Below, piece by piece: positions 1,248-60,584 of a stretch of DNA of 64,000 nt. Under the pieces are notes generated by a model. It was given only the letters and a program-made list of their open reading frames with translations, was not told where the DNA came from and ran no database searches. Source of the DNA: Ulota crispa (lineage: Eukaryota; Streptophyta; Bryopsida; Orthotrichales; Orthotrichaceae); assembly GCA_963920765.1 (NCBI GenBank), contig OY987242.1, positions 5,792,789-5,856,788 of the forward strand. Direction: 5' to 3'. The stretch's first letter is position 1; each line of letters starts with the position of its first letter. The position numbers and the translations under genes were made by a program.

Positions 1248-2121
1248 TTAACCTAAAGGATCAAGTAATTTTTTCTGTGAAAAACACAGAAAACTGCCAC
1301 TTTTGGGGAAGCAAGTACAATGGCAAGAAGAAAAAGCTTTTTACAATAATCCAACCGTAAGATCTTATAGTAGACTACAAGAGGTACATGTGGTAAAAAA
1401 ATCAGCTCAATTTGCACAAAAATGAGTGAGATATTTACATTTGCCCAAAAACTTCAGAAGGCTTTGACCACTCTTAGAGCAAAAACATTACTCTACACAA
1501 ATTTGAGGTTTATTTTTCCCATGTAGGAGACCAAGTTAGGTATATGTGGGAGAATTTTCAAATCAATTGGAAAAATTAGTAAATAAAAAGAAGTAGAAAA
1601 TGGGTCAAAACACTAAATTGTTAAGAATTTAATTATTGAAATGAAAAATGCAAATCCCAACGATTATAATATTGTGATAAACAATCCACATCTTTTGGCT
1701 TTGTTTTTTTTTTTCAAACTATTAAAAATTGAGTAAAATAAAGGACTTCAAAGTTTATATTAGAGTAGAGAATCTAGAACTGCCCGCAAACAAAAACTCC
1801 TCATAACTCTCATCTCATCTATGAGAATTGAATGATTCAAAGCTCCCCACGTCTATACAAGTCTAAAGAACCTATTTTAGATTTTTATTTGAAAAAATTG
1901 AAATTTTTAAAGAAGTTTGTAGTTGCCCGGGGAACAACATTTTCCAAATTTTCATGCATAACTTCTTCAATAAATGTTGGAATGAAGAAAAAATTACACT
2001 CCCACGTAGATCTTTGAATTCCTTGCCTTCCATAAAAATTTCAGAAAATCACGCAAAACCATAGATACATGCCCAAAATCCCATTTGTCCCCCGGAGGGA
2101 CAATGGTCCTTTAGGGGTTAA
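1248..2121 (-). mobile_element. TTAA-flanked non-coding DNA element, family A (reverse copy)
   Basis: The left end reads TTAACCTAAAGGATCA and the right end TGGTCCTTTAGGGGTTAA, an imperfect terminal inverted repeat that starts and ends with TTAA. The interior matches, in reverse orientation, the elements at 37020-37955 and 57215-58142: a shared block around GATTCAAAGCTCCCCA, a block with GTAGAGAATC, and a block around GAAATGAAAAATGC. No transposase can be read. TTAA target sites with CCC-starting ends are the signature of piggyBac-type transposition, so a piggyBac-like MITE is the inferred class. The left end is more diverged than the right. Confidence 0.75.
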
Positions 2122-2388
2122 GTAATGAAACAAGCTACCTTGACTTATGAAGGGTCCCTTTTTTTTCTTGGCTTTAAAAAGAAATTGGAAAAAAAATAGG
2201 AGTCTAGGCTTTCATGTTCAAGTATACCCACATGCTAAATGCTCGGCACTATGTTGCTTTCCACATTAAAACCAATGTGAACATTCTCGGACATTAGCTA
2301 TAACAATCACAAACTTTCAGAGAGTTTACAATGAATGCTTCCATTTTTCTATTGGAAAGGTTGTTGTCTGATTAATAAAAAAAACTAC

Positions 2389-3312
2389 TTAACCCCTGAA
2401 GGACCAAGCAAAGTTTTCTCCAAAAACTCTTCAAAATTGTCATTTTTAGAGCATCAACCAAATTTGAAAACAAAGACATTTTTATGCATATGTGACCGTA
2501 GGACCTTGTAGAAGAATGGTTTTAGAAGATGTAAAAAAAATTCAAAGTTTTCCACCATGTGGATTGGAAGTTAGAATGGTTTGAATATTCAAAAATGTCT
2601 TGTGAGAAATCAGGCACCTACCCTTCAAAAGGTGAAATTTCTAAGGGAAAAAGGTCATGTGGGTGGTGCTTCTCTAAATTCCTTATTCCGCCTAAGTAAA
2701 GTACATGTCAAAAAAGTTTCAAATCATTTGGAGTTATATAACATATGGAAAAAAAGGTTAGTAAGTAAAAAAAAAGTAGAAAATGATTCAAAACTCTAAA
2801 TTGTTAAGAACCTAATTATGGAAATGAAAAATGCCAATCCCAATGGTCAAAATGTTGTAATAAACAATCTACCTCCCTTGGTTTTATTTTATTTTCCAAA
2901 ATGTTGAAAATTGAGTAAAATAAAGGACTTCAAAGTTAATTTCAGTGTAGAGAATCCATAATTGCCCGCAAACAAAAAATCCTCATAACTTTCATCTTGT
3001 AGATTGAAATAGAATGATTCAAAGCTTCCTACATTCACATAAATCTCCTTAACCAATTTTAAAAAATCATTTTTGAAAAAAGTGATTTTTGGAATCTGCC
3101 CAAGCTGCCCGACAAATGTAAAAAACAATATATTAGGCCATAACTTTTTACTCAAAATTCCAAATGTCATGAAATTTAGTGCGTATGAAAGATAAACCTC
3201 ATCCCCACATTTGGTTAAAATTTCAGCCTAAAATATGAAAAACTCCAATCACAGGTACCTGCCCAAAATTGCTATGTTTCTAAAAAAGGGGGTCTAGTCC
3301 TTTAGGGGTTAA
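2389..3312 (-). mobile_element. TTAA-flanked non-coding DNA element, family A (reverse copy)
   Basis: It starts TTAACCCCTGAAGGACCA and ends CTAGTCCTTTAGGGGTTAA. Its interior follows the neighbouring 1248-2121 copy in order (AAATTGTTAAGAA, GTAGAGAATC, GATTCAAAGCTTCC), so the two are separate copies in the same orientation 267 bp apart. It has no coding capacity. TTAA at both ends is taken as the target duplication. Confidence 0.8.
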
Positions 3313-3491
3313 TGGTTCATTTCAAGTTACCATATCTAATTATGTTTGGATTCCAAAACCAAACTCTAAAAATTGCTTATTATATACCTTTACATTCTCA
3401 TCAAATTTTAGAATTGACTTAGAATGTTGCCATAAATTTTAAATTGCATCCATTTGCTACAGTATAGCTTACATTACTCTACCTCATGGGT

Positions 3492-3725
3492 TTAACCCTT
3501 AAACAACCAAAAGGTCCTTTGCAACCAATACAATATGGGGTATTTTTCTTGTATTTGGAATGGATCCACACCTCTACTACATTTGAGACTAACAAAAAAG
3601 GTGGAGAATAGATCTATGCAGTTCTAGTGAGCTACTTGAAATCCCAAATTAAAATTTCTTATTGGTAGCAAATGACAATTATACATTAGTGTATATACTA
3701 TGCCCTATGGTCATTTAAGGGTTAA
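3492..3725 (+). mobile_element. TTAA-flanked MITE, family B (234 bp)
   Basis: The ends are TTAACCCTTAAACAACC and GGTCATTTAAGGGTTAA. The interior contains GGTATTTTTCTTGTATTTGG and GATCCACACCT, which recur in the copies at 28655-28888 (same orientation) and at 48174-48401 and 59992-60210 (opposite orientation). There is no open frame. TTAA is the only flanking duplication seen. Confidence 0.8.
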
Positions 3726-3978
3726 GTCTCTTTTGAATTGAATTGAAGAATGCACATAGATGACATTTAAAGGATACATTGTACATTCAAATCTTCTCCA
3801 AAATTTCACACAAATCATTAAAGTCTTCCAAAAGTCCAAAAAAGCTTGTGGTTTTCATGATTTCTTGTGTTTACTATTTCTCTTGCCCATGAACATTTGA
3901 GCATAAGTTTGACTACATAGATGAAAATCAAATCAACTTATAGTGACGGTTTTAGGGTAGTCCACTTAACCTTATAAT

Positions 3979-4290
3979 AGGGGCTTCAAACATGAAATCT
4001 GGCCCTCAAACTTCTCACCTCACAAGATCTCCGGCACCAGTGATTTGTTTTCGTTCCCTTGCACGCGCAAAATTTGAGATACCAGTGAGTTTGTGGAAAT
4101 TTCTATAAGAGAAGTTTTGGGGTTTGAGGACTCGCGTGAATGAGCCGCAAGAAATCACGAAGATGAGTTTATGAAGTTCACACCTCACGTGCATCACGTT
4201 CGGAGATGAGTCACGGCGAAGTTCAGGAGTGAACCCACGAAAGTAAATCGTAACGTGAGTCACCTCAAAACGTTGATGTTTGAAGCCCCT
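3979..4290. mobile_element. 312-bp MITE with AGGGGCTTCAAACAT ends
   Basis: The ends are AGGGGCTTCAAACAT and its inverse ATGTTTGAAGCCCCT, flanked by AAT on both sides (a possible 3-bp target duplication). It is clearly GC-richer than its surroundings and contains several CACG/ACGT cores. It has no protein-coding potential that I recognise. The 3-bp duplication would suit PIF/Harbinger- or CACTA-type movement, but the superfamily is uncertain. Confidence 0.6.
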
Positions 4291-4494
4291 AATGTGATGG
4301 ATGTATGGGAGTCGGGTCTGCCTGGAAATGCAGAATCTTGGGCCAGTGATCCCAAATGGCTTACCAAATATGGTTACCATAACTAGCACAAATGGTTAAA
4401 ACCTGCTAAGTGCGTTAAAAAGTCAAAATTACTGAAAGCAACATTGAAACGTAAACGATATTTGTAATAACAAACAATCAAGAAAGGATATAAA

Positions 4495-5184
4495 AATGCC
4501 CCTCAATCCTTTCAAAATATCAAATGTACACCTCAATAATTTGAAATATGAAAAATACCCTTCGCTTTGTGTAGGGTTATTATACCCCTAATTTTCTTTG
4601 AGGATAATACCTCTTTATTTTGAGGACAACATCAAAAAGTTCCCTCAATTCTTTCAAAATATCAAATTATACCACTTGGTTAGTTTGAGATATCAAATAT
4701 GTCCCTATGTTATTTGAAATATCAAAAATACATATGGATTTGTGTAAGAATATTAGTTGGACTACACCCTTGGTTGTCTTCAAGAATGTTATATATACCC
4801 ATAATTTTCTTGTGCCTCTTTATTGCATTTATTTTGTAAATATTGGAATAACAACATAAACTACTATGTAGTCAATGCAATAGCCTTTGGCCTTTGGCCA
4901 CAATAAATTTACATGCAAAAAACCCATATAAAGAATTTGGAGATCTTGCCTTCAAGATTTTGCTTGCATTCAACTTGCATCTAATATCCATATCTTCCAT
5001 TGTCATACTAGAATTTATATAAAATTACAATAAGAGATGCAAGAGAACTAGGGGTGATTATGATATTTTCAAAGTTGTTTAGATGTATAGTCTAACTAAT
5101 ATTCTTTCCCAAAACTAGAGGTATTTTTTATGTTTCAAATAATATAAGGGTATATTTGATATTTAGAAAGTATTGAGGGGCATT
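4495..5184. mobile_element. ~690-bp element with ~70-bp inverted ends
   Basis: The left end begins AATGCCCCTCAAT and the right end finishes ATTGAGGGGCATT. About 70 bp inside each end remain complementary (the left stretch with CAAATGTACACCTCA against the right with AATATAAGGGTATATTTG). Short motifs such as TTTCAAAATATCAAAT are repeated inside. No transposase frame is present and no clear target duplication was found. Confidence 0.6.
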
Positions 5185-5212
5185 ATTAATATTTTCCCAA
5201 AATTAAGTGCTA

Positions 5213-6322: not shown

Positions 6323-6569
6323 TTAACCCCTAAAGGATGTTGTTGTTTTGTATATGGAATCTTGTGTTGTATACAAATGGGGCATTTGGGTAGCACATGA
6401 ATCCCATTGTAGTTGTAAATTTTAACCCACATTATAAACATACTTCTAGTCAATATGGATTTTTTGAGAAATTTTTAGTATTTGTCATATAGTCATTTCT
6501 TCAAGTACTAAATGGTCCTTGTACAAATACATACAACATTTTTGGTAGCCAACATCCTTTAGGGGTTAA
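6323..6569 (+). mobile_element. TTAA-flanked MITE, family C, upstream member of a tandem pair
   Basis: It starts TTAACCCCTAAAGGATGTTG and ends CAACATCCTTTAGGGGTTAA, a terminal inverted repeat of about 20 bp. The last four bases (6566-6569, TTAA) are also the first four of the next copy, so the two elements abut and share one target site. Confidence 0.85.
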
Positions 6570-6810
6570 CCCCTAAAAAATATTGTTGTATTGTATACGC
6601 TCTCTTGTGTTGTATACGAATGTGGTATCTGGGTAGCACATGATTCCCATTGGAGTACTAAATTTCAAGCCAAATCACAAACGTTATACTGGTCAATTAG
6701 GATTTTTTGATTTTTTTGGCATTTGTCAGAAAGTTAAAATTTCAAGTACTAAATGGTCCTCAAATGAATACAGCCAACACTTTTGGTAGGCAACATCCTT
6801 TAGAGGTTAA
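6566..6810 (+). mobile_element. TTAA-flanked MITE, family C, downstream member of a tandem pair
   Basis: A second copy in the same orientation as 6323-6569, roughly 75-80 percent similar by eye, with matching blocks TTGTGTTGTATAC, GGGTAGCACATGA and CAAGTACTAAATGGTCC. It ends CAACATCCTTTAGAGGTTAA. The shared TTAA at the junction means one element inserted into the terminal TTAA of the other, or the pair was duplicated in tandem. Confidence 0.85.
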
Positions 6811-8361: not shown

Positions 8362-8392
<31 letters not shown>

Positions 8393-8448: not shown

Positions 8449-10750
8449 ATGACCACCCCGAGTACGCACGGTCACAAGGCGCCGGACAGTCCTATGAACT
8501 TAGCCTCCAGTTTCCTCAACGACCAAGTGGACTCGGAGCATGAATTTAATTCGTACTCACGCCTCCTCGCAGGTGCCATGTCGCCCCCCGCGCCCGCCGA
8601 GGCGTCGAAGCCTTGCAACTCCTCGGACTCGTCGAAACCGGGACCGGAGAACGGAGTGCCAGGCAGCAATTCACCCGCCCGCAGCTTTGCCGAGCGCTTG
8701 GCAGCTCGAAGCGCTACCGCGAACAAGAGCGAGACTGAGGTTGGCAACGCTCATCGCCCTCCGCCCTCCAGCAATGGCAGCAGCCGCTACAACAATCCCT
8801 CGCCCCCGTCCAGCCTCCCCAACCCCCGCCATAGCAGTGGCGGTGCTGCAGGCTACTTGACCATCCCTGCGGGTCTCAGCCCCACCACTCTCTTCGACGC
8901 TTCCCCGGTCATGTTGAGCAATTCTCTGGTACACGCAAATCTCTTTACAATTCGGCCTTGACTTGTACACAGTTTGAATGAATGTGCATCACACACTGGT
9001 TGTGTGGCAAGTGTGCAGGACATTTAGTTCGTCGAAGGTCATGATAAAGAGGGTTGAATGTGCATATGTAGTTCAGCATGGAGCATGATTTGAGCGTGTG
9101 GCCAAGTCTTGAAGATGTTCTGTGGTGTCGTTTTAGGGAAGTTTATGGGTAAAGAGTTTATGTCAAATTCAGAGGCAAAAGTGGGGGTAGCGATTTGTGT
9201 GTGTGTTGACACTGTTAGGTCATGTGTGGTTGATGGGGTGCAGTCCGAGCCATCACCAACAACGGGCTCCTTCTCGCTCTCCTCGTACTACAACGGGTTG
9301 CGCAGTGGCAAGGACAATGGCCCTGATCAAGGGTTTTTGTTTAAGCCTTTGGGTGTTAAGACGGCGTCGCATAACCGATTGTCACCTCTGAGCATGCAAC
9401 ACTACAGTGGGATGCAAGCGCAGGCAATAGCACATATGCAACAGCAAGGGAGCCAGGCGTCGTCTCAGAGGACTGCAATGGAAGCTGAAACCTCCCAAGA
9501 GGCAGAGCAAGATCAGACGCCCACAGCTACGGCCCCAGCGCCTACGGCCGTGCCCACATTCATAGACCGACCCTCCGAGGATGGCTACAACTGGCGGAAA
9601 TACGGGCAGAAGCAGGTGAAGGGCAGCGAGTACCCGCGGAGCTACTACAAGTGCACGCAGACGAATTGCCCCATGAAGAAGAAGGTGGAGCGGTCGCTGG
9701 ACGGGCAGGTGACAGAGATTGTGTACAAGGGGGATCACAACCACCCCAAGCCCCAGCCCACGCGCCGGACGGCCATGAACGGCGCGCACCTCCTGAACGA
9801 CCACAGCCTCTCCCGCGACGCGGACAGCAACGATCATCACGCTTGGACGGGGCTCCAATCCGGCGGGGGGCAAGCGCACGTTGGTCCGTCGGACGCGTCC
9901 GGGAGCGACGACGAGGACGGGAGCAAAATCTCGAACGAGGATGGCGACGACGACGAGCACAACTCGAAGCGAAGGAAGAGGAGCCATGACAGCTCCAAGG
10001 ATGTCGCGGCGACGGCGCCGCGGACGATTCGCGAGCCGCGCGTCGTGGTGCAGACCACCAGCGACGTGGATATCCTTGATGATGGCTACCGGTGGCGCAA
10101 GTATGGCCAGAAAGTGGTCAAAGGCAATCCACATCCCAGGTAAGCTTATCCCAATTCAAATCCCATCACAACCAAAATCCCCCTCTCGGACATTCCAGTT
10201 GCGACACTTTCTCTGACGAGTTCTGACAAGCGCTTGCTTCGGTGTGTGCACAATTGACAGGAGCTACTACCGGTGCACAAACGTGGGCTGCCTCGTGCGG
10301 AAACACGTGGAACGAGCCTCCAACGACATCAAAGCCGTGATCACCACCTACGAAGGCAAGCACAACCACGACGTGCCCGCCGCTCGAAACAGCGGCCACG
10401 AGATGGCCGCCCCTGTGAACCCGCCGCCATCGCCTGCCACCTCTCTGCAAGACCAAGGCCTTCGCTTTGGTCGCGGCATGTCCGGCGCTTACGGCCCAGC
10501 TCTGGGACTCCGGGATCGCATGCGGAAAGACGACGACGCGTACATCCCGGCACCCATCACCATGAGCTTAGGGAGGGAAAACGGCGATCACCGACACTCC
10601 ATGGACGGATACCGGTCCCTGCTCATGTCCCGGCCCAAGCAAGAGCAGGGCGGCGACTCCACCAGCAATCTCCGACCTCCGTCCCATCTCAACCCCAACT
10701 CATCGTTGTACCAACAAAGCTCGGCTCATGTCAGCATGGGCAGACGTTGA
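8449..10750 (+). CDS. Group I WRKY transcription factor (two WRKY domains)
   Basis: Sequence-specific nuclear DNA-binding protein of 621 residues that would bind W-boxes (TTGACC/T). Exons are 8449-8928, 9244-10139 and 10261-10750, all GT-AG. The N-terminal WRKYGQK is at residues 277-283, followed by C-X4-C-X22-H-X-H. The C-terminal WRKYGQK is at 444-450, followed by C-X4-C-X23-H-X-H; this pair defines group I. Intron 2 splits the Arg codon of NPHPR-SYY, the conserved WRKY intron site. A proline-directed Ser cluster ([21 protein letters not shown], about residues 145-170) matches the MAP-kinase target region of AtWRKY33-type proteins, and intron 1 falls inside it. An acidic stretch and a KRRKR-type basic patch precede the second domain. 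The start is the first in-frame ATG after a stop. Stress or defence roles are known for the family but inferred here. Confidence 0.95.
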
Positions 10751-14396: not shown

Positions 14397-14629
14397 TTAA
14401 CCCATGAACGGCCCGAAAGCTCTTTGCAGCCGTATGTACGATCATATGTATAGATGTATTTGAGTTACTCTGAGGGTTTTCCAATTTTTTTTATGCACCC
14501 ACCATCATACAACCCTTCAATATGTATGGTTATAACACTTAATTTTTAACTTATTCAAACTCCTGAATATTGGTTGCGACCATATATGGTACCGTATCTC
14601 CAGAGCCCAAGGGGCCCTTCCGGAGTTAA
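14397..14629 (+). mobile_element. TTAA-flanked MITE, family D
   Basis: It starts TTAACCCATGAACGGCCC and ends GGGCCCTTCCGGAGTTAA. Its interior (GTACGATCATATG, TACAACCCTTCAATATGTA, TGGTACCGTATCTCC) reappears inverted at 23294-23498. It is non-coding. Confidence 0.7.
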
Positions 14630-15572: not shown

Positions 15573-16231
15573 TTAACCCCTAAATGGCCAAGCCCTATCT
15601 GAGCTTCTTGAGATTTCCATAAAACAGAACAATCAACCAACCTTTTCAAAAATTTCATCAAGTTTTTTCAATTGTAGCAGTACAAATTTAAATTGAACAT
15701 GTTAGAGATTACTTGGGAAAAGAAATCACAACAATATCATTTTTAGTTTGAAAGATTATAATGTTTGAACATGAGGGTGTTAAAACTGTAAAAGTGACTA
15801 GAAGTTTTCTAATCCTCATTTCATATGTCAAATCTAAAAAGTTGATTACCAAAAAAATATGAGGTTTAAGGTCATTACATGTTTAACTTTAATCAATTTA
15901 CGGCTTTCAAAATCTACTCCTATACATATTTTAAATGGATTTCTAATGTGATTTTTTCTCCAAGCTCTAGTGTATTAGAGGCTCCTTTTCAAGATCTTCC
16001 AACACTAGAAAACTCAAGATTGTAGTGGATACCCTTGTACAAATTCTTGAGTAGAAAAATCATCAATTTTCATTTTCAAAATCAGATTTTTGATGTTGAA
16101 AATAGACTTCAAAACCAACTTATATTGGAAAAAAAAAAAAAAAAATTGAAAATAGTGATTTGATAAGATTTTATTCATCTTCAAAGTTTTGTTGCAACCC
16201 AAATCTGGTCGCTTGGGCATTTAAGGGTTAA
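15573..16231 (+). mobile_element. TTAA-flanked non-coding element, family E (~660 bp)
   Basis: Its ends are TTAACCCCTAAATGGCC and GGGCATTTAAGGGTTAA. Interior blocks ATGTTAGAGAT, CACAACAATATCA, GGGTGTTAAAA, TCTAGTGTA-TTGAGGCTC-like and ATTTTCAAAATCAGATTTTT recur in the same order at 27993-28658 and 59332-59995. No protein frame resembles a transposase. Confidence 0.75.
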
Positions 16232-23293: not shown

Positions 23294-23498
23294 CCCTTGG
23301 GCTCTGGAGCTACGGTACCAAATACGATCGCAACTAATATTCAGAAGTTTGAATAAACTAGAAATTAAGTGTTACAACTATACATATTGAAGGGTTGTAT
23401 GATGGTGGGTGCATAATTTTTTTTGAAAAGTCCTCAGAGCAACTCAAATACATCTGTACATACGGCCGCAAAGGGCGTTTGGGCCCTTTAGGGGTTAA
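23294..23498 (-). mobile_element. TTAA-ended MITE, family D (reverse, one end eroded)
   Basis: Reading the minus strand, this follows the 14397-14629 copy from TTAACCCCTAAAGGGCCC through TACAACCCTTCAATATGTA to TACCGTAGCTCCAGAGCCCA. The far end lacks a matching TTAA, so that terminus is diverged or lost. Confidence 0.65.
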
Positions 23499-23541: not shown

Positions 23542-24514
23542 TTAACTCCTAAAGGACCAAGCCCCCTTTTGGGGGACAAATGGGATTTTGGGCATGTACC
23601 TATGGCTAAACTACTTTGCGTGATTTTTTGAAAATTTTATGGATGATGGGGAAATCAAAGATTTACGTGGCCACCTAATTTTTTCTTCATTCTGACATTT
23701 ATTGAAGAAGTTAAAAATGAATTTCTAGAAAACATGCGCCCAAAAACTACTTTAAAATTTGCATTTAAAGAAAATAAAAATATGAAATAGGTTCTTTAGA
23801 CTTATATATACATAGGGGGCTTTGAATCATTCAATTTTGATTGATGAGATGAAAGTTATGAGAAGTCTTTGTTTGCAGGTAGGTGTGGAAAATTTCAAAA
23901 CCATGCCTACCCGCAAACTAAAAGTTCTCATAACTTTCATCTCATTAGTCAAAATTGAATGATTCAAAGCTCCCCAAGTCTATATAAGTCTAAAGAACCT
24001 ATTTCGTATTTTTATTTTTTTAAATGCAAATCTTAAAGAAGTTTTTGGGCCCCTTGATCTTGCCCATTTTTGGAAATTCATTTTTGACTTCTTCAATAAA
24101 TGCAAGAATGAAGAAAAAATTAGATGTCCACGTAGATATTTGAATTCCACACCTTCAATAAAAGTTTCAAAAAATCACAAAAAGTAAACTAGCTGTAGGT
24201 ACATGCCCAAAATCCATTTGTCCTTCGAGGGAAAGTCACTACAAGAAAAAGGGCCATTTTTGACTAAGGACTTTGACTACAAAAAAGACTAACATGACTA
24301 AGACTAATTGACTAGTCTGTGTGACCACATGTAGTCATAAATAATTTAATTAGTCATGAATAATTTAATTTATGACTATGCATAGTCATAAATTAAACCC
24401 TTGACTGATACTAGACTAGTCAAAAAGTCTTAGTCGTTGTATTGTTTTGGTAATCAAAATCCTTAGTCAAAAATGACCCATTTTCTTGTAGTGAGTTGGT
24501 CCTTTAGGGGTTAA
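23542..24514. mobile_element. Palindromic family A derivative, interrupted by a CACTA element
   Basis: It starts TTAACTCCTAAAGGACCA and ends GTTGGTCCTTTAGGGGTTAA. Leaving out the CACTA insertion (24237-24493), the ~715 bp fold into two arms of about 340 bp that are complementary almost throughout (TGGGCATGTACCTATGG left, GTAGGTACATGCCCA right; CTTTGAATCATTCAATTTTG left, AAAATTGAATGATTCAAAG right). Each arm equals one half of a normal family A element (37020-37955), so the palindrome arose by inverted duplication of that half. A transcript through it would be a long hairpin. Confidence 0.85.
24237..24493. mobile_element. 257-bp CACTA mini-element nested in family A
   Basis: The ends are CACTACAAGAAAAAGGG and CCCATTTTCTTGTAGTG with longer complementary flanks (CATTTTTGACTAAGGA, TCCTTAGTCAAAAATG). 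It is flanked by AGT on both sides, and removing one AGT plus the element restores the family A sequence GGGAAAGTTGGTCC. Many GACTA/TAGTC repeats lie inside, like the sub-terminal repeats bound by CACTA transposases. It is non-coding and younger than its host element. Confidence 0.92.
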
Positions 24515-25154: not shown

Positions 25155-25314
25155 ACCAACGTCCTTTGTTTGTAAATTATGAGTTGTTATGCTAGACAAG
25201 TTCCTATTCATCAAAAGTCCCATTATGTATAGGGGAGATACATTTCAGAAATTGACTGTGTTCATATATGTACATCTCAAGTACATCATGCAACATTTGA
25301 TAAAGGGAATTGAT

Positions 25315-25740
25315 ATGTGCACACCAGGATTGATTTATGCACACCCCCTGGGGTAAACTATAGATTTCTACCATCAAAAAGTTGAATTTGAGAATTTCAA
25401 ATTCAAATTTGGAATAAGAGACCATGATTTAGTCTAAAATCAAAAAAAGGTTACAATTGAATAACACCTAAGCTTATCTTCTATTATAAACTAAGCAAAA
25501 GTAACACTTTTCCCCTAACTAAGCTTTTCATTGGATGTTGTTTAATTGCAACCTTTTTATGGTTCTAAACAAAATTATGGTCACTAAATCCAAATCTAAA
25601 TTCAAAGTTCTTAAATTTAACTTTTTGATGATAGAAATCTAAAATTTATCCCCACGGGGTGTGATTTATCCCATAGGAGTGTGATTTACCGCATGGGGGT
25701 GTGTGCATATATCAACCCCGGTGTGCACATATCAATTCCC
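25315..25740. mobile_element. 426-bp foldback element with GGGAATTGATATGTGCACACC ends
   Basis: The outer 20 bp (GGGAATTGATATGTGCACAC and its inverse) are perfect inverted repeats, and complementarity continues inward (TTTGATGATAGAAATC against GATTTCTACCATCAAA; CAAATTTGG). The flanks TTGATAAA and TTGATAAC form a near-perfect 8-bp duplication, as in hAT elements, though the GGGAA start would also fit Mutator-like ends. It is non-coding. Confidence 0.75.
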
Positions 25741-26197
25741 TTGATAACTAGGAACTTACCCAATATGACAATTGTGCTTGTAACATGAAAGCTGCATACT
25801 TGAGTACGTAGATTCCAATTCTAATGAATCAAGTGACTTCCATCAATTTTGTTAAATTTTTAGTTGAACTGAACCAATATTGTTTGAGGTCTTTAATTCT
25901 TTTAAATACGGTACCTTACTATTTAACAAATAACCCTGTTAAATCCTACGATTTATGTACTTGGAAGATTGTGTTTTTTATGTAATTTGTCTTAGAGCAG
26001 AATGTGAGAGACACCATTCATAATTTTCTAAATTGAGAGATCATGCCCACAACAATAAGCAACAAATTATGTTTAACACCATATTGTCATAGCAGGTTTA
26101 TTTTTTTTGAACAAATTAGTGTCAAATTACACTAGTGGCTGCCAATCCAATAATTCAGAATTGTGTTACCCAATGAAATGGTACATTCTCGATAGCT

Positions 26198-27992: not shown

Positions 27993-28658
27993 TTAACTCC
28001 TCACCACCCAGGCGCCCACGGATATTCTAGAGTATCTCAGAACTTGCTCTTGGATGAACAAAATGGCAACATTTTGACAAGTTGCATCATTTAAAAAAAA
28101 CTTATAACCTTGCAAATTCAACCTAGATATGTTAGAGATCACATAGGAAAAGAAAACACAACAATATCACTTATGGATTAAAAGATTATAAGATTTGATC
28201 ATGTGGGTGTTAAAATTGTGAAAGTGATTTTAAGTCTTTCAATCCTCTTTTTGCATCTCAAATTTGAAATTGAGGATATCAAAAAAATATGAATATGTAA
28301 AGTACAACATGTGTAACCCTAATCAATTTACAACTTTTTAAAATCTACTTTACAACTTTTTCAATTAAGTTTCTAATGTGATTGTTTCTCCAAGTTCTAG
28401 TGTACTTGAGGCTCATTTCCAAGAGCTCTTAACACTAGAAAGTGAAGATTTCCAATGGGCACCCTTGCACAAAATCTTGAATAGACAAATCATAGTCATT
28501 CATTTTCAAAATCAGATTTTTGATACTGAAACAAGACTTCAATAAGAACAATTTAAAAAAATAACCACTAAAATTAATCTTTTTCTAACAAAGATCCAAA
28601 TTAAAATGTAGGGTGGACAGTTTTGGTCCCCTTGGGCGGTGAGGGCCTGAGGGGTTAA
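27993..28658 (+). mobile_element. TTAA-flanked non-coding element, family E
   Basis: It starts TTAACTCCTCACCACCC and ends GGCCTGAGGGGTTAA. It is collinear with 59332-59995 over nearly its whole length (GAGTATCTCAGAAC..GCTCTTGGATGAACA, TAAAGTACAACATG, CACCCTTGCACAAAATCTTG). Its last TTAA (28655-28658) is the first TTAA of the following family B element. Confidence 0.8.
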
Positions 28659-28888
28659 CCCTTAAACAATTGAGAAGCCCTTTGAGACCAGTACAATACG
28701 AGGTATTTTTCTTGTATTTGGAATTGATCCACACCTTTACTACATTTGAGACCAACAAAAAAGTTAAAGAATAGATCAATACCGTTCTAGTGCGCTACTT
28801 AAGATCCCAAATTCAAATTTGTTATTGGTAGCAAATGACAATTACAAGTCAGCGAACATACGGTTCCCTATGTACGTTTAAGGGTTAA
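28655..28888 (+). mobile_element. TTAA-flanked MITE, family B, abutting family E
   Basis: The ends are TTAACCCTTAAACAATTG and TACGTTTAAGGGTTAA, with the interior as in 3492-3725 (GGTATTTTTCTTGTATTTGG, TTATTGGTAGCAAATGACAA). It shares its first TTAA with the family E element before it. Confidence 0.85.
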
Positions 28889-37019: not shown

Positions 37020-37955
37020 TTAGCCCCTAAAGGACCATTGTCCCTTGGAGGGACAGGTTGGACTTTGGGCATGTACCTATGGTTAAACTACTTTGTGTGA
37101 TTTTTTGAAACTTTTAATGAAGGTGGGGAATTCAAATATCTATGTGGACATCTCATTTTTTCTTCATTCCGACATTTGATGAAGAAGTTATGCATGAATT
37201 TATGAAAATTTTGGGAGGACCGCCCGCATGGGCAGCCCAAAAACATCTTTAAAAATTACATTTAAAAAAAAATTAAAAATTGAAATTGGTTCTTTAGATT
37301 TTTTTATATGTGAGAAGCTTTGAATCATTCAATTTCAATCAATGACATGAAAGATATGAGGAGTTTTTGATTGCGGGCAATTATGGATTCTCTACTCTAA
37401 AATAAACTTTGGGGTCCTTTATTTTACTCAATTTTCAATATTATGGAGAAAAATTTAAACCAAAGGAAGTAGATTGTTTATTACAACATTATAACTGTTG
37501 GAATTTGCATTTTTCATTTCAATAATTAAATTCTTAACAATTTAGCGTTTTGATTCATTCTCTACTTTTTACTTATTGATTTTTCCCGTGTGTTGTATAG
37601 TTCTAGTTGATTTGAAAATTCTCCCACACATACCTAACTTGATCTCCTACTTGGGGAAAAAAAGAACACAACTTTGGGTAGAGCAATTGTTTTGTTATAA
37701 GAGTAGTCAAAGGCTTCTAAAATTTTTGGGCAACTTTTAAAAAGATTTTTTTTTCACTTTACTTATAAATATCTCACTCATCTCCATCTAGAATGAGCTG
37801 ATTTTTTTCCCATAAGTACCTCTTATAGTCTGGGGCAAGATCCTATGGTTGAATTTCCCAAAAACAAACCATAAAATCCCTTTTTACTAAACCTCCTAGA
37901 AGTGGCAGTTTTGTGTGACCTTCACACAAAAAAGGTGTGGTCCTTTAAGGTTTAA
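37020..37955 (+). mobile_element. TTAA-type non-coding element, family A (forward)
   Basis: It starts TTAGCCCCTAAAGGACCA (TTAA changed to TTAG) and ends GGTCCTTTAAGGTTTAA. It serves here as the reference undamaged arrangement of family A: a left half equal to the arm of the palindromic copies and a unique right half (GTAGAGAATCC inverse, AACAATTTAGCG, CCTACTTGGGG). There is no coding frame. Confidence 0.8.
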
Positions 37956-37983: not shown

Positions 37984-38508
37984 TTAACCCCTAAAGGACC
38001 AATTATCTCCTTGGGGGACAAATGGATTTTGGGCATGTACCTACAGCTAATCTACTTTTTATGATTTTTTGAAACTTTTATTGAAGGTGTGGAACTCAAA
38101 TATCTACATGGGCGTCTATTTTTTTTTTCATTTTGACATTTATTGAAGAAGTTAAAAATGAACTTCTAGAAAACATGCAAGATCAGGAAGCCCGAAAACT
38201 TCTTTAAAAATTGCATTTAAAAAACTAAAAATATGAAATAGGTTCTTTAGACTTATATATACTTAGGGAGTTTTGAATTCTTTAATTTTGACTGGTGAAA
38301 TGAAAGTTATGAGAAATTTTTGTTTGTGGGTAGGTGTGGTTTTGTTCAATAAATATCAGAATGAAGAAAAAATTAGATGCTCATGTAAATTTTTGAATTC
38401 CTCATCATTCATAAATTTTCAAAAAATCACACAAAGTAATTTAACCATAGATACATGCCCAAATTCCCATTTGTCCCCCAAAAGGGTGCTTGGTCCTTTA
38501 CGGGTTAG
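37984..38508. mobile_element. Palindromic family A derivative with one shortened arm (525 bp)
   Basis: It starts TTAACCCCTAAAGGACCA and ends TGGTCCTTTACGGGTTAG. The outer ~165 bp of each side are inverted repeats (GGGGGACAAATGG, TGGGCATGTACC, GATTTTTTGAAA), as in 23542-24514, but the inner part of the right arm is missing, so it looks like a deletion derivative of that palindrome. It begins only 28 bp after the previous copy. Confidence 0.8.
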
Positions 38509-38934
38509 AGTCTATCTAATACGGGGCACAGAATTTCAAGGAATCTCATTATTACACAAATCATTTTGTTTACGTGACTGTTCAAAATCAAAAGGTTTAT
38601 TGGTAACATTGACTGACTTCTTATAGTTTTGTAGTGAGGAAAGCGCTCATTTCATTTTTAAAGTACACGTCAAGTAAAAAAATCACTAACGAGCATAGGA
38701 GAGAGTGAATGAATACATGAAACAATTTGTTTAGGTGGTGCTTAATCCCCAAAGCCCTAAACACCTTTGTTGGCAATATAGCAATATTGGGCAGCTCACT
38801 ATCAATGGGGTTTTCATTTCCCTTCTTTAAAGTTTTCACACATGATGTGTCCAAGGAGTAGCCTTAAGGCCCAACAGTTTTCATAACTTTTGATTTAAAA
38901 GTTCAAAAGTTATTGCATAATATGTAGTTTTCTT

Positions 38935-39659
38935 TGCTCAAGGGACAGCCAAAAACTTTTTTAAAAATTACATTTTTTGAATTTTGTTTTTGGAAACTTG
39001 TTCTTTAGATTTATATATACTTGGGAAGCTTTGAGTCATTCTATTTTGATCAATGAGATGAAAATTATGAGGAGATTTTGTTTGCAAGCAATTATGGATT
39101 CTCTACTCTAAAATAAACTTTCATGTCCATTAATTTACTCAATTTTCAATATTTTAGAAAAAATCAAAACCAAAAGATGTAGGTTGATTATCACAACATT
39201 ATAACCATTGGGATTGGAATTTTTCATTTCCATAATTAAGTTCTTAACAATTTAGTGGTTTGAATCATTCTCTACTTCTTTTTACTTACTATTATTTTTC
39301 ATATGTATACAACTCCAAAGGATTTGAAGTTTTTCAAGTGTGTACCCAACTTGCTTTGAAGAACAAATCCAAAAAATTACAACCATTTTGGAGTTTTTTT
39401 CATATAAATATGACCTTGTGAAGTGCAGTTGCCTGGATTTTTGAAAATTGCTTTCTGTCAATTCAAACTCAAATATCTAACAATCTAAATGGTGAAAACT
39501 CTTGAAAATGTTTCCACATCTTTTGGTACTAGTGTAGTACAAGATCTTATGGCTACGTTTACCAAAAAATGTTTTATTCCCAAATTTGGTACTTGCACTA
39601 GAAATGGCAATTTTGGAGCGGTTTTGGTGAAAATGTGAGCTTAGTCCTTTAGAGGTTAA
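38935..39659 (+). mobile_element. Family A fragment lacking its left end
   Basis: The order CTTTGAGTCATTCTATTTTG, GCAATTATGGATTCTCTACT, AACAATTTAGTGG, GTCCTTTAGAGGTTAA follows the middle and right end of 37020-37955. The left terminus is not recognisable. Confidence 0.7.
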
Positions 39660-40739: not shown

Positions 40740-41340
40740 CATTTTTATTTCATGCAATATCTCACTTCTATGATTGTGTGGCAAGTAATACTCTCTCATG
40801 GAGACACTTCTATTGTACAAAAAGAAAACTTTGAACTCATGTTTATATATGGGAATAAACTAGTTTTAAGATTTGACACACTTTTGTACAATTGAAATTG
40901 AGAACAAAGGTTTTTATTTTCAATTTTGGGCAATGCACTAAAAGTTGGCAGTTTCTGAGATTTTTTCTCAAAAAACACCCTTGGTCCTTTAGGGGTTAAT
41001 GAACTTTGAATAGTCTATAGGTAGTTGTATATAGGATCTATGATTTTACCATATTTTTGATGGAGAAAGGATAAGACACTTGGATATTAATCTTTAAAAA
41101 CATTATACTCTACTTTGGGAGCAATCTAAATTTTAATTGGCTTATCAAAGCCATGCATACACAAAAACCCTTTAAAGCCCTTTATAAAAACTGAATTCAT
41201 TTTCAAAACATTTCTTAACTTTCTAACTCTCACTTATTAAAGGTTTATAAGCTATAAATGACAACCCAAATAACATACATAGACCAATTTTGGATTTTAA
41301 TTTAAGTGGATTTTTTGAATAAACTTTAATAGAGTATTTT
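40740..41340. other. Solo TTAA-element end, then intergenic DNA
   Basis: CTTGGTCCTTTAGGGGTTAA ends at 40999 and matches the right terminus of the TTAA families, but I found no matching left end. The rest to 41340 holds nothing recognised. Confidence 0.5.
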
Positions 41341-48173: not shown

Positions 48174-48401
48174 TTAACCCTTAAAGAACCATAGGACATA
48201 GTAGTATATATGCTACCGTATAATCAGTATTTGTTACTAGTAAGAAGTTTTAAGTTGGGATCTCAAGTAGCTCACCAGAACCTCTTTGATTTATTCTTCA
48301 ACTTCTTTATTGATCTTAAAGGTGTGGATCCATTCCAAATACAAAAAAAATACCCCATATTGTACTAGTCGCAATGACACACTTAGTCCTTTAGGGGTTA
48401 A
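48174..48401 (-). mobile_element. TTAA-flanked MITE, family B (reverse)
   Basis: It starts TTAACCCTTAAAGAACC and ends AGTCCTTTAGGGGTTAA. Read on the minus strand it follows 3492-3725 (GGTATTTTTTTTGTATTTGG, GATCCACACCTTTAAGATC). It is non-coding. Confidence 0.8.
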
Positions 48402-48950: not shown

Positions 48951-51900
48951 ATTTTTATCAATAGTTATTGCAGTTGACAAACTTTAACAACACCAAGGGC
49001 CTGGAAGCAACAACAACAGTGCGGTAAAACAAACTAGCAACATTTAGGCTATAAACCTTGTGAAAGAATTGCATGTTTGATGGTGTAGGGAGTGCAAAAG
49101 CCTCATTGTATGACATTAACCATTTCGAGACCACCAAACCATATTTTGATTCAGCAGAGTGGTCTTTAGTGTATACAGTAAAATTGCTCAAGAATTTGGA
49201 AATTGGCCTTGAAGAACGCTTGTGATCACGAGAATTTTGCATCAAACAAAAAAATAACAATGGAATCGTGTATGTGAGTTGATAAATAATGGTGTTTATA
49301 CAACATGGCCTCAAAATACATATTCATATTTGGTCAAAGATGGATCAAAGCAACAACATAGTACATCAAACATCCAAGAAGAATTTCAAATTTCAATTGT
49401 GCCATCCTAAAAAAATTCAAATTGCTCAAGAAACATGGTTGATTTGTTTTTCTATACGGTAGTAGTATAATTGTAGTATTTGAAAATCTATTGAAATGGT
49501 GGTATTATTTCATCTCTAAAAAATTTGTCCTAAATTTAAGGCAAGTTCTTGATTGTTTTCACCAATTGGATTTTCCATGGCATTTATCAAGTTTCTTGTA
49601 AAATTGTTTTTGGGTAGCAAAGAAAGTGGGATCTTTGACCCTTTTTGTCCACTTAGCTACACCTTGTGATTGCTATATTCATCCATTTTGTGTGAAACTA
49701 GTCTCATTGGAAAGGTGGGAAACCCAACTTCCTAGAAATGTAAGGCTCTCATCAAGCAAAGCTTGTATGAAGTAGTATGATCCAAAACCACACACCCAAT
49801 GTCAACTCACTCAATCATTATAATATTTCATCTCCAACAGTAGATCTAGTTGAGATTCCTATGCTTTGTAGTAAACAAGGATTACTTGCCATTTGTACGT
49901 TTAGATTATTGAAATTGGGTCTAGATTCAACCGCACATCCAAGTTTACTACGCCAATTTTTAATGGATTTTGTGAAAATGTGTGTGGTCTTTAAAGGGTT
50001 AACCCAAGTGCTCACAACATCCTAGATTATGCATACATAGAACAATCATGAGGCTTACTACAGGGATTCTAAATTTGATTCCTTTGGCTTGAGAGATGTC
50101 AGGATGTGGCCCTATGCACCACAAAGAAACACCAACAAGGAGCAAGCTCTAAAGGAAGCATGGCTTGCAACCATCCAATCAGGTATGGCTATTTTGTGCT
50201 TTATGCATTTGTAATGAATTCAGCTAATAGATGTAAATCAGAATGTGCATGTCTAGAAAAACAACAACTACATCCATATTTATTTTGTACCTTGGAGAAA
50301 TAAAACAATGGCAATTTGAACCACCCATGCAATTGATCCAATGTTAAATATCAAACCTTGAAATCCACAAAAGGAGTCTAGGAAAGTCCCCACAAGGTCG
50401 TACAAAAGCCTCCTTGTATAAAGTGCTAGTAGTGCTTGTTGTGAATAGAAGGAAAAACCAACGTCAGCCTCCAAATGAATTATAAACATAATGAGGGCAT
50501 GGCAATCTCTCCTTGATTCTTGAAAACCCCACTTTTTGAAGATTGAGAAACTTTCTCTTCACCTCTAGAGGAGAAGAATGGAGTGAAGAAATCTTTGCAC
50601 AAAAACTTTCCACCTTTGCTTATCTCATTTTCATCCTTGTTGGTCTTTTTATAATTGTTGATTCTCCTTTTTAGTTGTTGACTCTCCTACATAGAGAAGT
50701 GCTCCCATTGAGTCATATTTTCACTCCTAAAATTCTCATTCTTCACAAAAGTTTCAATCTCAGGTGCCTACCCCTAATATTTGTGAGATTGAGATTGATT
50801 GGAGGAAGGGTTAAGTGGCGAGCGAATTTTTGCCAAAATCTTACCTTAATTAGTGGCTAGCTACCACAACACTAAAAAAAATTGTGTGAAAAAATGGATG
50901 AAATCACCAAATTCCTCCCCAAGCTTACATCAGGTTCACCAGAATTTGGATGAGTATTAGTAGATTTTATGGATGAGCGAGCATACTTTGTCGATTCTAT
51001 CCATTTGTCCAAATTCTCCTTACCAGCCTGCATTGGTGGGTGCCTGTCACACGACCACCGAAAAAGAAAACCAATTTTAAAAGCTGGTTTCAGGGTGTGT
51101 GCACTCCTTCAGATGCTGACTTCTGCCACACAACTGCACACCAAGTCATCGTGCACGATTTCCATCATTTGACAAGCCCCGTCCACTGGACCAACCGATC
51201 GATCGCTCATCTGTCGCCTGCAGAGAGTCTCACTGCAACGGCGGCTTCCATGGGTAATGCCAGCACGTGTATCCCGGGAGATCCAACTTCGTTAACCTTG
51301 AAAGTCGTGACACAGTATCAGCTGCGCATGGCCTGCCTCGCCCCGCTTGCTTGGACTGACCAGCTGCACCTCACGCAACGCACACGCCTCACTGGAAGGC
51401 CAACCAGATCCCCTGCTAAAAGTAGTTAACAGAGAAAGAAGGCGACTGTCATCCAGACACGCTACGGGGACATGGGAACAACTAAACTCTATAAACATAA
51501 TAGGATTTAGTTTGATTGTACGCTGAAAAGCAACGCATCAATACCGATGTTTAGGAACCGAAACTTAAGTGTGCACAGAAACGCAGCTGGTTTAGCAAAT
51601 AGGGCATGATACATAACATGAATGAGACCTCTCTGGAGTAACGGACTACAATAACAAATGTATAAAATCTGCTACTTGAACCGAAATGTGCTACTTGTAC
51701 CGAAATCTGCTACTAGTAAGGAAATCTTCCTTTGGTGACCGGTTTGCAAGCCTGGGCTGCACCTGTGACTGAAATCTACAGTGTTGAATCAGAACAGTTT
51801 GAAAGCAATCTTGTTGTGACATGGAGATACAGGTTGCACAGAGAGCATCGTCACATCCTCGTACCGAATCTTGAGGCTGCTGAGGAGGAGGGATTGACGG

Positions 51901-54664: not shown

Positions 54665-54674
54665 TCTTTTTATA
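54665..54674 (-). promoter_or_regulatory. Candidate TATA box of the AN gene
   Basis: CTATAAAAAG on the minus strand about 890 bp upstream of the AN start, where the composition changes from GC-richer leader-like DNA to AT-rich intergenic DNA. Functional use is inferred. Confidence 0.35.
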
Positions 54675-56339: not shown

Positions 56340-56357
56340 TGCCCCTACTTGAGGCGC

Positions 56358-56780: not shown

Positions 56781-57214
56781 CTCTACGCATTACATCTGTT
56801 GGTCCAAACTACATAAAACTCAAACACAAGAATGTCTGGTTATGACCGTCTCAAAAGTGCTAAAAAAAAAAATATCATATATGGTCTAATTTGGACCGTT
56901 AGAGTTTAGCAGCTGCGTTTGGGTAGACTTGTTCTGCGCTTCTGACTGAAAGATGCTGCCGGTATGTCAGTGAGGGCCTTTCCCTTTTGATCCGCATCGT
57001 TGACAACATCTGGCGTTTCGGGACGACGTTGTGGATTTTTGGGTACTCGCAGCACACCTGGAGAGAGAATTGTGTACCTTTAAAGTATGGGGATGTTGAG
57101 ATTGACAATTATTGACTGCCAAGTCTAGCCGAACGAATTGCACATGAGACGATAACAATAATTCTTGGGTTTGTCAAGGGAGGACGTACTTCTTGTTATG
57201 AGTGCTTGTTATCT
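56781..57214. other. Intergenic, nothing recognised
   Basis: A short gap without a recognised gene or paired repeat. Confidence 0.5.
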
Positions 57215-58142
57215 TTAATCCCTAAAGGACCATTGTCCCTACTGGGGATAAATGGGATTTTGGGCAGGTACCTACGGCCTCAAAGTTTGTTCTAATTTTT
57301 AAAACTTTTTTTGAAAATAGAAAAAGACATTAGTTTTTGAGGAATCTAATTTTTTTTCCAATTGATGCCAAGGAGCAAAAGTTATGCCCAAATAAGCACA
57401 AATTTGGGGACTAGGGGCAGCAAAAAAAATTCTTGTAAAAACCTGAAAAAATATTTTAATTTTTTTTCTTATAAATTATATCTTTGTCTACATTTGAAGC
57501 TTTGATTCATTCCATTTGGACTAGTTATGGAAAAGTTATGGACAATCTTGTTTTTTGGGCAACTCAAGCATCTTTTTGAAAAAATAACTTATAAACTTCA
57601 TTTCTGAATGTAGGTTTAACATTTTTTCAAAAAATATTGTTGGAGAGGGTGAAGTTTGCTTTCTAGAACAATCTCACCATTGGGATTATTGCGTTTCAAT
57701 TCCATTGCAGGGTTACTAGCAATTTAAGTTTTTATTCAATCTCATTCCTTCTTCTACCTAATGTTTTTTTAAAGAATGAAAATTGAGTATTCTTTAAAAA
57801 AAAGAATTTCCCAAGATTCCCAACTCAACTTACCACCATGCAAAAATAGAATTCCAAACTCCGTGGCGCAAAAATTTTAAGTTAAAAATGTTCAAAGTTA
57901 AAAAATCTAGTCAAGTGAGGCGCAAACAACATTTTTTTTACACTTTAAAAGCATATGTCTTTCAATCTGTGTGGTCAAAGTTCTTGAGTTTTGTATGACA
58001 CATTTTTATAGTAGTTTAGCACAAGATCCTACGGTCAGATCTACAAAATGCTTGATTTTCAAACTTTTTTACTCTTTGCCATAGAAGTGGCAATTTTGAG
58101 TGTCTTTTGACAAAATAATGGCCATGGTCCTTTAGGAGTTAA
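57215..58142 (+). mobile_element. TTAA-flanked non-coding element, family A (forward, diverged)
   Basis: It starts TTAATCCCTAAAGGACCA and ends TGGTCCTTTAGGAGTTAA. The order of blocks follows 37020-37955 (GATTTTGGGCAGGTACCTA, GCTTTGATTCATTCCATTTG, GTGGCAATTTTGAG), but many interior bases differ. It is non-coding. Confidence 0.75.
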
Positions 58143-58224
58143 TGCCATATTTAATTCCATACCACCCAAATAGGAGGTAGAATTTGTTCGTTTTCAATCT
58201 ATTTTGAGATTTTTAGGACTGAGA

Positions 58225-58510
58225 CATAACATTTAGTAGCCTGAAGAGAGGCTACCTTTCCCTCTCTTCAAGTATCATCGACAAGCTTCATCCTGACAAA
58301 AAAAAAAAAAAAGGTTTTTTCTCTTTCTCTTTCTTTCTTTCTGACATGGCTAGCCCCCACATCAACGTATGTGCACTAAACTGAGCCTCTCTTTCATAAA
58401 CTCTCTCACAAATCCAGCCAGTTGTCATCTTAACTGCTGATGAGTGTGGAATATTCCACACTCTTCAATTGGAGGGAGGGCAGACCTGTTGAGTGCTACT
58501 GAATGCTATG
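58225..58510. mobile_element. MITE with CATAACATTTAGTAGC ends, second copy
   Basis: It starts CATAACATTTAGTAGCCTG and ends GTGCTACTGAATGCTATG. Blocks CTTTCCCTCTCTTCA, GACAAAAAAAAA, CTTTCATAAACT and GGAGGGAGGGCAG correspond to 16382-16669. A pyrimidine-rich microsatellite replaces part of the centre. Confidence 0.75.
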
Positions 58511-59331
58511 AGGGATTAACTAATTACAAAGCTATAAATGATATTCATGTCAGCAGAGAATATTGAAAGTTTTAGCCCATTTAGAGCCCTCTCAAATTTC
58601 ATGAGGAGATTTCTTGATAGGGACCAATCCACGTGTAGAGAATTTAGGTTTAGAGGATGTGCATGACATTATACACTACAACAAAAACAACACATCTAAA
58701 TTGATTAAATGTGTTCAAATTGATAAAAAAGTGTCCTCAGTGACAGTGACAAAAACATGATTAAGTTGACAATAAATGTCCTGATTGACACTGTTCCCTT
58801 TATTCTAATTAAATTAGCTCTTGTTGATCATGGTCCCAAATAGTCCAAATTTGCTTTCATTGTTTAGATTTAGGATCCACTTTCATGTTGCCTCAAAATT
58901 AGGTACAATGATTAGCATTTTCTAACTTCCAAACTGATTTCAAATCCCCAAAATTCTCATGCTTCTTGCTATAAAGTTACCTAACCACCATTTCCAATTC
59001 TAAATTTTTCCTTTGTTTTTGCAGTTGTCCAATTCGATATAGCATAGAATTTGACTCTAATTTAATAATGACATTGTCATTGCATACATATTCTGTATTT
59101 TTTTGCGTACGCAACAAGCAAACAATGTCAGTTTGGACATTTTTGGTCAATTAGGATGTTTTTTTTTTTTTTTTTTTTTCAATTTAGATGTTTTTTTAAT
59201 AAATTTGGACATTTTATCTTAGTTTGAATATTTTTTTTTGTTAATTCAAATGTATTCAGTCAATTTGGACATGTCAGTTTGAACAATTTTTTCTGCAATG
59301 CATAATGATAGCACATAGTTTTCCAGCAAAG
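58511..59331. other. Intergenic, with poly-T and TTTGGACAT-like repeats
   Basis: It starts a CACTACAAC-like motif at 58674 without a matching right end. 59130-59290 contains a 20-T run and several near-repeats of (C)AATTTGGACATTTT. No gene was recognised. Confidence 0.45.
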
Positions 59332-59995
59332 TTAACCCTTAATCCTAGACCATCCACGGACATTCTCCAATATCTCAGAGTGTGCTCTTGGATGAACAGA
59401 ATGACAACATTTTGATAAGTTACATCTCATTTTTTAATAAATTGTAACCGTACAAATTCAAGCCAGATATGTTAGAGATCACATAGGAAAAGAAAACACA
59501 ACAATATCACTTATGGATTGAAAAATTATAACATTTGATCAAGAGGGTGTTAAAACTGTGAAAGAGATTTGAAGTCTTTCAATCCTCTTTTCATATCTCA
59601 AATTTAAAATTGAGGATGTCAAAAAAATATGAGTATGTAAAGTACAACATGTGCAACCCTAATCAATTTATAGCTTCTTAAAATCTACTTTACAATTTTT
59701 TAAATTAAATGTCTAATGTGATTGTTTCTCCATGTTCTAGTGTACTTGAGGCTCATCTCCAAGAGCTCTCAACACTAGAAAGTGAAAATTTGCAATGGAC
59801 ACCCTTGCACAAAATCTTGAATAGTCAAATCATAGTCATTCATTTTCAAAATTGGATTTTTGATACTAAAACAAGACTTTAGTAAGAGTAATTTTAAAAA
59901 ATAACCACTTGAGTTAATCTTCAATAAAAGTCAAAAAACTTCAAGTTAAAATGCACAGCGGCCACATTCCGTCCCCTTGGGTGGTCTAGGGTTAA
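59332..59995 (+). mobile_element. TTAA-flanked non-coding element, family E (first of three in a chain)
   Basis: It starts TTAACCCTTAATCCTAGACC and ends GGTGGTCTAGGGTTAA, collinear with 27993-28658. Its terminal TTAA (59992-59995) is the start of the next element. Confidence 0.82.
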
Positions 59996-60210
59996 AGGAC
60001 CAAGCTACTACAATACATAGTATGTACGCTATTGTATAACCGGCATTTGCTACCAACAAAGTGTTTTAAGTTGGGATCTTGACTACCTCACTAGAACAAC
60101 ATTGATCTACATTCTAACTTCTTTGTTGATCTCAAATGTAATAAAGGTGTGGATGCACTCCAAATACAAGAAAAATACCCCTTGTTGCAAAGGGCTGCTT
60201 GGTCGTTTAA
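59992..60210 (-). mobile_element. TTAA-flanked MITE, family B (second of three in a chain)
   Basis: Reverse copy of family B: GTGTGGATGCACTCCAAATACAAG and AAAATACCCC inside, with ends TTAAAGGACCAAG (its CCCC shortened) and TGCTTGGTCGTTTAA. It shares TTAA with both neighbours. Confidence 0.75.
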
Positions 60211-60584
60211 CCCATTAAGGACTGGTCAACCAGTTCCTGGTCAATTTTGACTCTTTTCAATATGTAGAGAGAGCATGTTAAGGAATTTGATGACGTAGCA
60301 AAGGGGACGGGTTTGGGGAATTGGAAAGTGAAGAGTTCAGGACTATAACCATGTCAATCTGAGGTGGCATGTGGCTAGAGGGTTGGAAAAACTAAAAGAG
60401 TACCGGCTGAAAATACACCAATAAATGCAAAAAGATGACCATAACACTAAATGTTGCAAGATACTTCCATCTATACGGTCAAATTTGTGATAGACATTTG
60501 TATTCAATAACCCTAAAATATCCCCAAATGAAAATACAAAGGATTACCCACCCCCAGAATCGACCACGGTCGTTAAAGGGTTAA
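60207..60584. mobile_element. TTAA-flanked MITE, family F (third of three in a chain)
   Basis: It starts TTAACCCATTAAGGACTGGTCA and ends CGACCACGGTCGTTAAAGGGTTAA. It is the only copy of this interior in the window. It shares TTAA 60207-60210 with the family B copy before it. It is non-coding. Confidence 0.72.

Follow-up and report, generated by a model that had tools for sequence, protein, structure and literature searches.

The genome of the moss Ulota crispa carries, in a 64-kb stretch referred to here as the window (OY987242.1 5,792,789-5,856,788; G000:C1:5792789-5856788), at least seven families of non-coding elements that are bounded by TTAA and whose paired ends span 228-973 bp. These elements are almost certainly miniature inverted-repeat transposable elements (MITEs) of the piggyBac superfamily, probably mobilized by DDD transposases of that superfamily whose genes lie in other parts of this genome (274.8 Mb in 157 contigs, denoted C1, C3, C8, C10 and so on). 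The families, denoted A to G, were grouped from paired ends and self-comparison of the window, and their number agrees with the minimum of six put forward in the original prediction. Sizes are ~234 bp for family A, ~650 bp for B, ~930 bp for C (several subtypes), ~246 bp for D, ~233 bp for E, ~890 bp for F and 378 bp for G. Counted without the uncertain 38504-39659, the elements cover ~9.4 kb, or 15% of the window.

The ends of the elements stand out clearly from the background. TTAACCC occurs 32 times in the window (9.3 expected), exact TTAACCCTWAA eight times (0.18 expected) and exact TTAACCCCTWAA 11 times (0.03 expected); combined, 19 exact TTAACCC(C)TWAA ends are present, versus ~0.2 in shuffled sequence, which bears out the earlier description of the ends as piggyBac-type. 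Termini starting with CCC or CC[C/T]T, as expected of piggyBac, were seen both in the window and on transposase-bearing elements, and some window ends deviate from this pattern by starting with CTC, TCC, CCA, GCC or AAC. A pairing test, in which TTAA sites 120-1400 bp apart were joined when at least 10 of 14 inverted bases matched, yielded 22 pairs in the window versus 1-8 (mean 3.6) in twenty dinucleotide-block shuffles. Because AATT and ATAT gave 24 pairs each in the real window (TGCA, 6; TATA, 5; GATC, 1), the pair number alone is weak evidence; the specific signal is the CC start on both arms, found in 11 of the 22 TTAA pairs. Three of these 11 are cross-pairings between ends of neighbouring elements, and the test failed to recover the element at 28655-28888.

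Genomic copies of families A, D, E and G were collected, as proposed in the original prediction, and most of them end exactly at both query ends: 37 of 45 rows for family A, 27 of 46 for D, 35 of 43 for E and 30 of 40 for G. These counts include the query's own copy and are lower bounds, with only the ~40 best candidates scored per search (candidates before scoring: 3,966, 1,347, 2,047 and 743, respectively). The elements are thus short, non-coding, high in copy number and fixed in their ends, as MITEs are; internal deletion from a parent was traced through both ends for family G only, and through the right end only for family C. Beyond TTAA the flanks of the window elements have no bases in common, consistent with the earlier claim that TTAA is the sole duplicated flank. 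Two paralogous empty sites within the genome lack the second TTAA, with 4 bp duplicated and nothing else. At the first, the filled site in L045 (8952-9604, minus strand) reads GTAGAA-TTAA-CCCC ... GGGG-TTAA-GCCTTTT, and the empty site in L002 reads GTAGAA-TCAA-GCCTTTT. At the second, a 361-bp insert in L046 splits a family A copy with sides reading TGAA and TTAA; the uninterrupted copies read TTAA in two window copies and CTAA in L004. A single TTAA in the unoccupied state was also found in the nested host described below. The empty-site comparison suggested originally therefore gave a single 4-bp site, from paralogous positions within this genome rather than from related genomes.

A profile search with PF13843 (DDE_Tnp_1_7), in which 116 of 528 candidates were scored, returned at least 120 transposase rows in the genome (best value 1.3e-73) and hits in 0 of 14 control genomes. 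None of the 120 rows lies within the window, in line with the earlier statement that no autonomous partner is found there. Ten rows are free of internal stops, with L040, L042 and C2:34594948 as examples of open frames. The open reading frames (ORFs) of L042 and L040 match the solved piggyBac and piggyBat transposases; in the L042 ORF, aspartates align with positions 268, 346, 447 and 450 of the Trichoplusia ni transposase (6x67), which we take to be the catalytic residues, so that the DDD triad is present by alignment. Among the 30 best-scoring copies, many of which are decayed, aspartate is kept at these positions in 27, 22, 26 and 25 copies, respectively. In 23 of the 30 loci the domain is followed, at a distance of 177-252 bp, by a loose cysteine pattern that was not found in the other 7; it would represent the C-terminal cysteine-rich domain of piggyBac transposases. 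Pairwise identity within this set ranges from 27 to 81%, with a median of 35%.

Three groups of transposase-bearing elements have termini of the type seen in the window. The copies in L045 (C3) and L046 (C10) align as one piece of 5,029 bp at 90.5% identity; the similarity stops at the termini, and nothing outside aligns at E 1e-5. The L045 element is bounded by TTAACCCCTCATCGCCAA and TTGGCAATGAAGGGTTAA, with ends TTAACCCCTCATCGCC and TTAACCCTTCATTGCC and TTAA on both sides; the left TTAA of L046 reads TTCA. Their left end, searched in the genome, gave five rows with starts at query position 1 or 3, all of them long except for one of 36 bp. The row on C8 is ~2.5 kb away from a third transposase row (C8:14765820-14766620), which matches the spacing within the query copy.

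The second group is represented by a 5.7-kb transposase-bearing element in L042 (1595-7250), both ends of which match the family G MITE of the window: the left over 196 bp (66%) and the right over 121 bp (68%). Alignment scores were 60 (left) and 40 (right); for 15 shuffles they did not exceed 27 and 29, and for eight other transposase loci 30 and 26. These alignments identify the family G element as an internally deleted derivative of an L042-type element. Position 8215 of L042, taken as the right end at first, was replaced by 7250 after both ends had been matched to the MITE. The related transposase loci L043 and L040 have right ends that match over 35 and 40 bp.

In the third group, L047 resembles L048 and L049 as far as the right termini TTAACCCCTAAAGGACC, TTAACCCCTAAAAGACC and TTAACCCCTAAAGGATT and no further, and the similarity between L048 and L049 ends ~160 bp short of the right terminus. 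The terminal ~350 bp of all three have counterparts, at 68-77% identity, in two family C elements of the window taken together, 1248-2121 and 37020-37955 (query 5-324 of the former to L047 7478-7131, 76.6%; query 591-936 of the latter to L048 7207-7555, 75.4%). A transposase thus lies inside ends of the same type on both sides in L045/L046 and L042, and on the right side only in L047-L049. The piggyBac-like (DDD) transposase with the same termini that the original prediction had called for is accordingly found in the genome, on PF13843 elements that end in TTAA-CCC(C)T. Similar ends surround a transposase in L041 (161-7655) and L044 (827-7822), which are single copies and were excluded from the argument, and no convincing left end was seen near the transposase in L039 or L043. 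When 18 ends from the window were first compared with 10 candidate ends of transposase-bearing elements, most scores were at or near background, and no ends were found within 1.5 kb of 30 transposases because the elements are longer.

The window also contains elements inserted into one another. The most plausible reading of TTAACCC (59332-59338) and GGGTTAA (60585-60591) is that they are the two tips of a single family A copy, separated from its body when later elements, apparently one at each tip, entered the TTAA that lies 7 bp in from the end. The host rejoined from 59332-59338, 59992-60210 and 60585-60591 measures 233 bp, is 77.8% identical end to end with 3492-3725 and has both tips TTAACCCTTAAA; some window ends first taken as simple termini hence proved to be nested. 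Abutting copies from the searches with families A, D and E (at most 10 bp apart) overlap by exactly 4 bp in six of eight pairs, the remaining two pairs being separated by gaps of 3 and 7 bp. Genome-wide, 165 tandem arrangements of the form TTAACCC-(0 to 2 bases)-TTAACCCCTAAAGG were counted for one end type. They may have arisen when an element entered the TTAA located 7 or 8 bp in from another element's end, as judged from the window case, the only one dissected. An earlier reading of these tandem 'stutters' as an odd footprint was dropped, since insertion into the internal TTAA would account for them. Tandem TTAACCC was also seen at element ends at L042 1587-1601 and L047 7484-7491.

Several observations weigh against the piggyBac assignment. 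Internal stops interrupt 110 of the 120 PF13843 rows, some of which may be added by read-through introns. The right-hand TTAA of the L042 element is mutated (TTGA read inward), the left ends of L047, L048 and L049 were looked for and not found, and L040 749-7355 was rejected as a transposase element, 749-1657 being itself a MITE. Both empty sites are old: one reads TCAA, and the other has TGAA on the filled left side and CTAA in one of three uninterrupted copies, with a 361-bp insert of uncertain family whose ends, CTCTTGAA and CCTTGAAC, are not clean CCC ends. Finally, no parent was found for families A, B, D, E and F, which are joined to no transposase-bearing element, match in termini and target only, and are provisionally assigned to piggyBac from these two features.

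These five families are where another superfamily with a TTAA target might be sought. Kolobok and Sola3 also duplicate TTAA, and the piggyBac transposases of the genome would then be coincidental. On a transposase search made with the PF13843 profile, we regard this as very improbable: PF13843-bearing elements share long stretches of sequence, beyond the termini, with two of the families, and most ends of the remaining families have the same CCC(C)T start. Still less credible is a source among Tc1/mariner elements (TA duplication, ACCC termini) or PIF/Harbinger elements (TTA or TAA), the targets of which are all contained in TTAA, so that the outer T and A would reflect chance or preference. 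The base preceding TAACCCTWAAAGGACC is T in 1,105 of 1,145 ends genome-wide and that preceding TAACCCCTAAAGGACC in 8,154 of 8,479; for the two patterns combined, TAA-CCC(C)TWAAAGGACC, 9,259 of 9,624 ends have the outer T. Moreover, empty sites lose 4 bp, abutting pairs mostly overlap by 4 bp, the linked transposase is PF13843, and no 2-bp TA duplication with free neighbouring bases was observed. It is just as implausible that the TTAACCC signals are chance or telomere-like sequence: the plant telomere unit does resemble the CCCTAAA inside the ends, but 19 ends were seen against 0.2 expected and whole elements recur with exact ends.

Taken together with piggyBac transposition as known, the data would fit the following course. 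Non-coding derivatives, internally deleted or otherwise, retain the TTAA-CCC(C)T termini for recognition and would have been moved by piggyBac transposases from elsewhere in the genome. The transposase would cut at these ends, insert the element into TTAA and duplicate 4 bp only, a chemistry established for piggyBac; the remaining window families may use the same enzymes. A flanking TTAA, or in some families one situated 7 or 8 bp in from the terminus, would itself serve as a new target, and chains with one common TTAA and nesting in tips would therefore arise. It is improbable that any of the open-frame copies named above still encodes a functional transposase able to mobilize these MITEs.

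Coordinates of the TTAA-bounded elements and related features in the window (TIR, terminal inverted repeat).
Feature	Position	Strand	Remarks
Family A MITE, 234 bp	3492..3725	+	TTAA-CCCTTAAA...; genome rows exact at 1-234; copies in window
Family A MITE	28655..28888	+	83.3% to 3488-3733; left TTAA (28655-28658) common with adjoining family B copy
Family A MITE, 228 bp	48174..48401	-	Self-comparison, paired ends
Family B element	59339..59995	+	TIR TCCTAGACCATCC / CCCTAGACCACCC
Family B element, 659 bp	15573..16231	+	12/14 TIR bases; relatives in L005, L006, at 28113-28542 and 59405-59879
Family B copy	28016..28658	+	86.4% to 59354-59985; right end at 28658, no left partner end found
Family C element, 874 bp	1248..2121	-	Related to L047-type right part; left end one C fewer
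Family C element, 936 bp	37020..37955	+	TTAG-C in place of TTAA-C on the left; AAC start on the right
Family C-related element, 924 bp	2389..3312	+	12/14 TIR bases
Family C-related element, 973 bp	23542..24514	+	13/14 TIR bases; partial copies (to 24223) in L003, L005
Family C-related element, 525 bp	37984..38508	+	Right TTAA reads TTAG (CTAA inward)
Family C-related element, 928 bp	57215..58142	+	Full-length copies in L008, L044
Family D MITE, 247 bp	6323..6569	+	14/14 TIR bases
Second family D MITE	6566..6810	+	TTAA 6566-6569 common with first family D MITE
Family E MITE, 233 bp	14397..14629	+	10/14 TIR bases
Family E copy	23294..23498	-	81.6% to 14397-14613; one end intact at 23498, no partner end found
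Family F element, 887 bp	49116..50002	+	Full-length copies L040 749-1657, L043 8582-9498
Family G MITE, 378 bp	60207..60584	+	Genome rows exact at 1-378; sits in internal TTAA of family A copy
Single element end TTAACCCCTAAAGGACC	40872..40999	-	40872-40997 92.9% to L042 7249-7372; no partner end found
Nested cluster	59332..60591	+	Family A host interrupted by family B (59339-59995) and family G (60207-60584) elements

Other features of the window include a gene with two WRKY domain matches (9109-10750) and a LOB-domain gene (34682-35152), domains that, on a contig of 41.4 Mb, point to a land plant and fit the plant host named in the original prediction. A separate repeat at 25300-25745 has 45-bp inverted ends that are 91% alike and do not start with TTAA-CCC; relatives of it occur in L007, L012, L022, L034, L038 and L042. 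Elsewhere in the genome, a search with PF00504 revealed closely similar genes for chlorophyll a/b-binding proteins clustered at G000:C4:21391382-21499621. When a chlorophyll-binding protein of this genome was compared with solved structures, the top match was a 620-aa chain aligned in two stretches, followed, among the 60 of 89 chains listed, by 8htu_U and 7xqp_a of the moss Physcomitrium at ~456 bits, with no more than 442 bits for the rest; this agrees with a moss host.

The transposases are homologous to those of piggyBac (Trichoplusia ni) and piggyBat (PDB 6x67, 9c0f), with the four aspartates aligned, and the systems are alike in the TTAA target, the CCC-starting ends and the downstream cysteine pattern. 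In contrast to them, the elements described here are numerous and diverse within one plant genome, and the two types with established ends measure 5.0 and 5.7 kb, compared with 2,472 bp for the well-defined PB transposon and 1.23-9.51 kb for animal ones, as given in an excerpt of PMC10813416. According to the portions cited of PMC2872659, the coral CMITEs and AmiPB elements offer a similar picture of TTAA-flanked piggyBac MITEs with TIRs of the type CCCTTTAAGCCCTA, accompanied in their genome by piggyBac-like elements, and of tandem arrays; the left TIR of AmiPB2, CCCTTTAACGCCC, is close to CCCTTTAACGACC of the window. The coral CMITEs are ~100 bp long with a conserved core, whereas the elements of U. 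crispa span 228-973 bp, have several unrelated interiors and reside in a plant.

Passages of the literature record piggyBac-like elements in plants (PMC8086355, PMC10813416), place PiggyBac among the superfamilies in all groups surveyed, land plants included (PMC4438587), and name it in a list of plant superfamilies (PMC10794571). A table excerpted from the fern Ceratopteris paper gives 1,230 PiggyBac fragments totalling 122 kb (PMC6890710), and an excerpt on a grass gives one 75-bp PiggyBac element (PMC8319324). Among open-licence titles and abstract openings no report of piggyBac elements in a moss was found, although the wider print may differ; in the part of the moss genome paper PMC10619864 that matched, the term was 'piggybacking' in another sense. 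The description of the superfamily as little documented in land plants consequently needs tempering, several papers already listing it. The superfamily is best known from animal genomes and is already listed for plants; notable are the copy number and the transposase diversity in a land plant. Both Ceratopteris and U. crispa are land-plant genomes with piggyBac annotation, but the fern record, in the part cited (PMC6890710), is a table of fragments, and the present one consists of delimited elements, transposases and empty sites, with exact ends numbering more than 9,000.

Collectively, these data document a large piggyBac population of a land plant with its boundaries, transposases and paralogous empty sites, in which two 17-bp end patterns alone account for 9,259 exact copies. 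Transposase identities down to 27% among the 30 best-scoring copies suggest long residence or repeated arrival and not one recent arrival. Annotators of plant genomes gain concrete ends to search with, and the search for an active piggyBac gains a natural plant host. Should a working transposase be present after all, U. crispa would be a land plant with a native, living piggyBac system and thousands of substrates.

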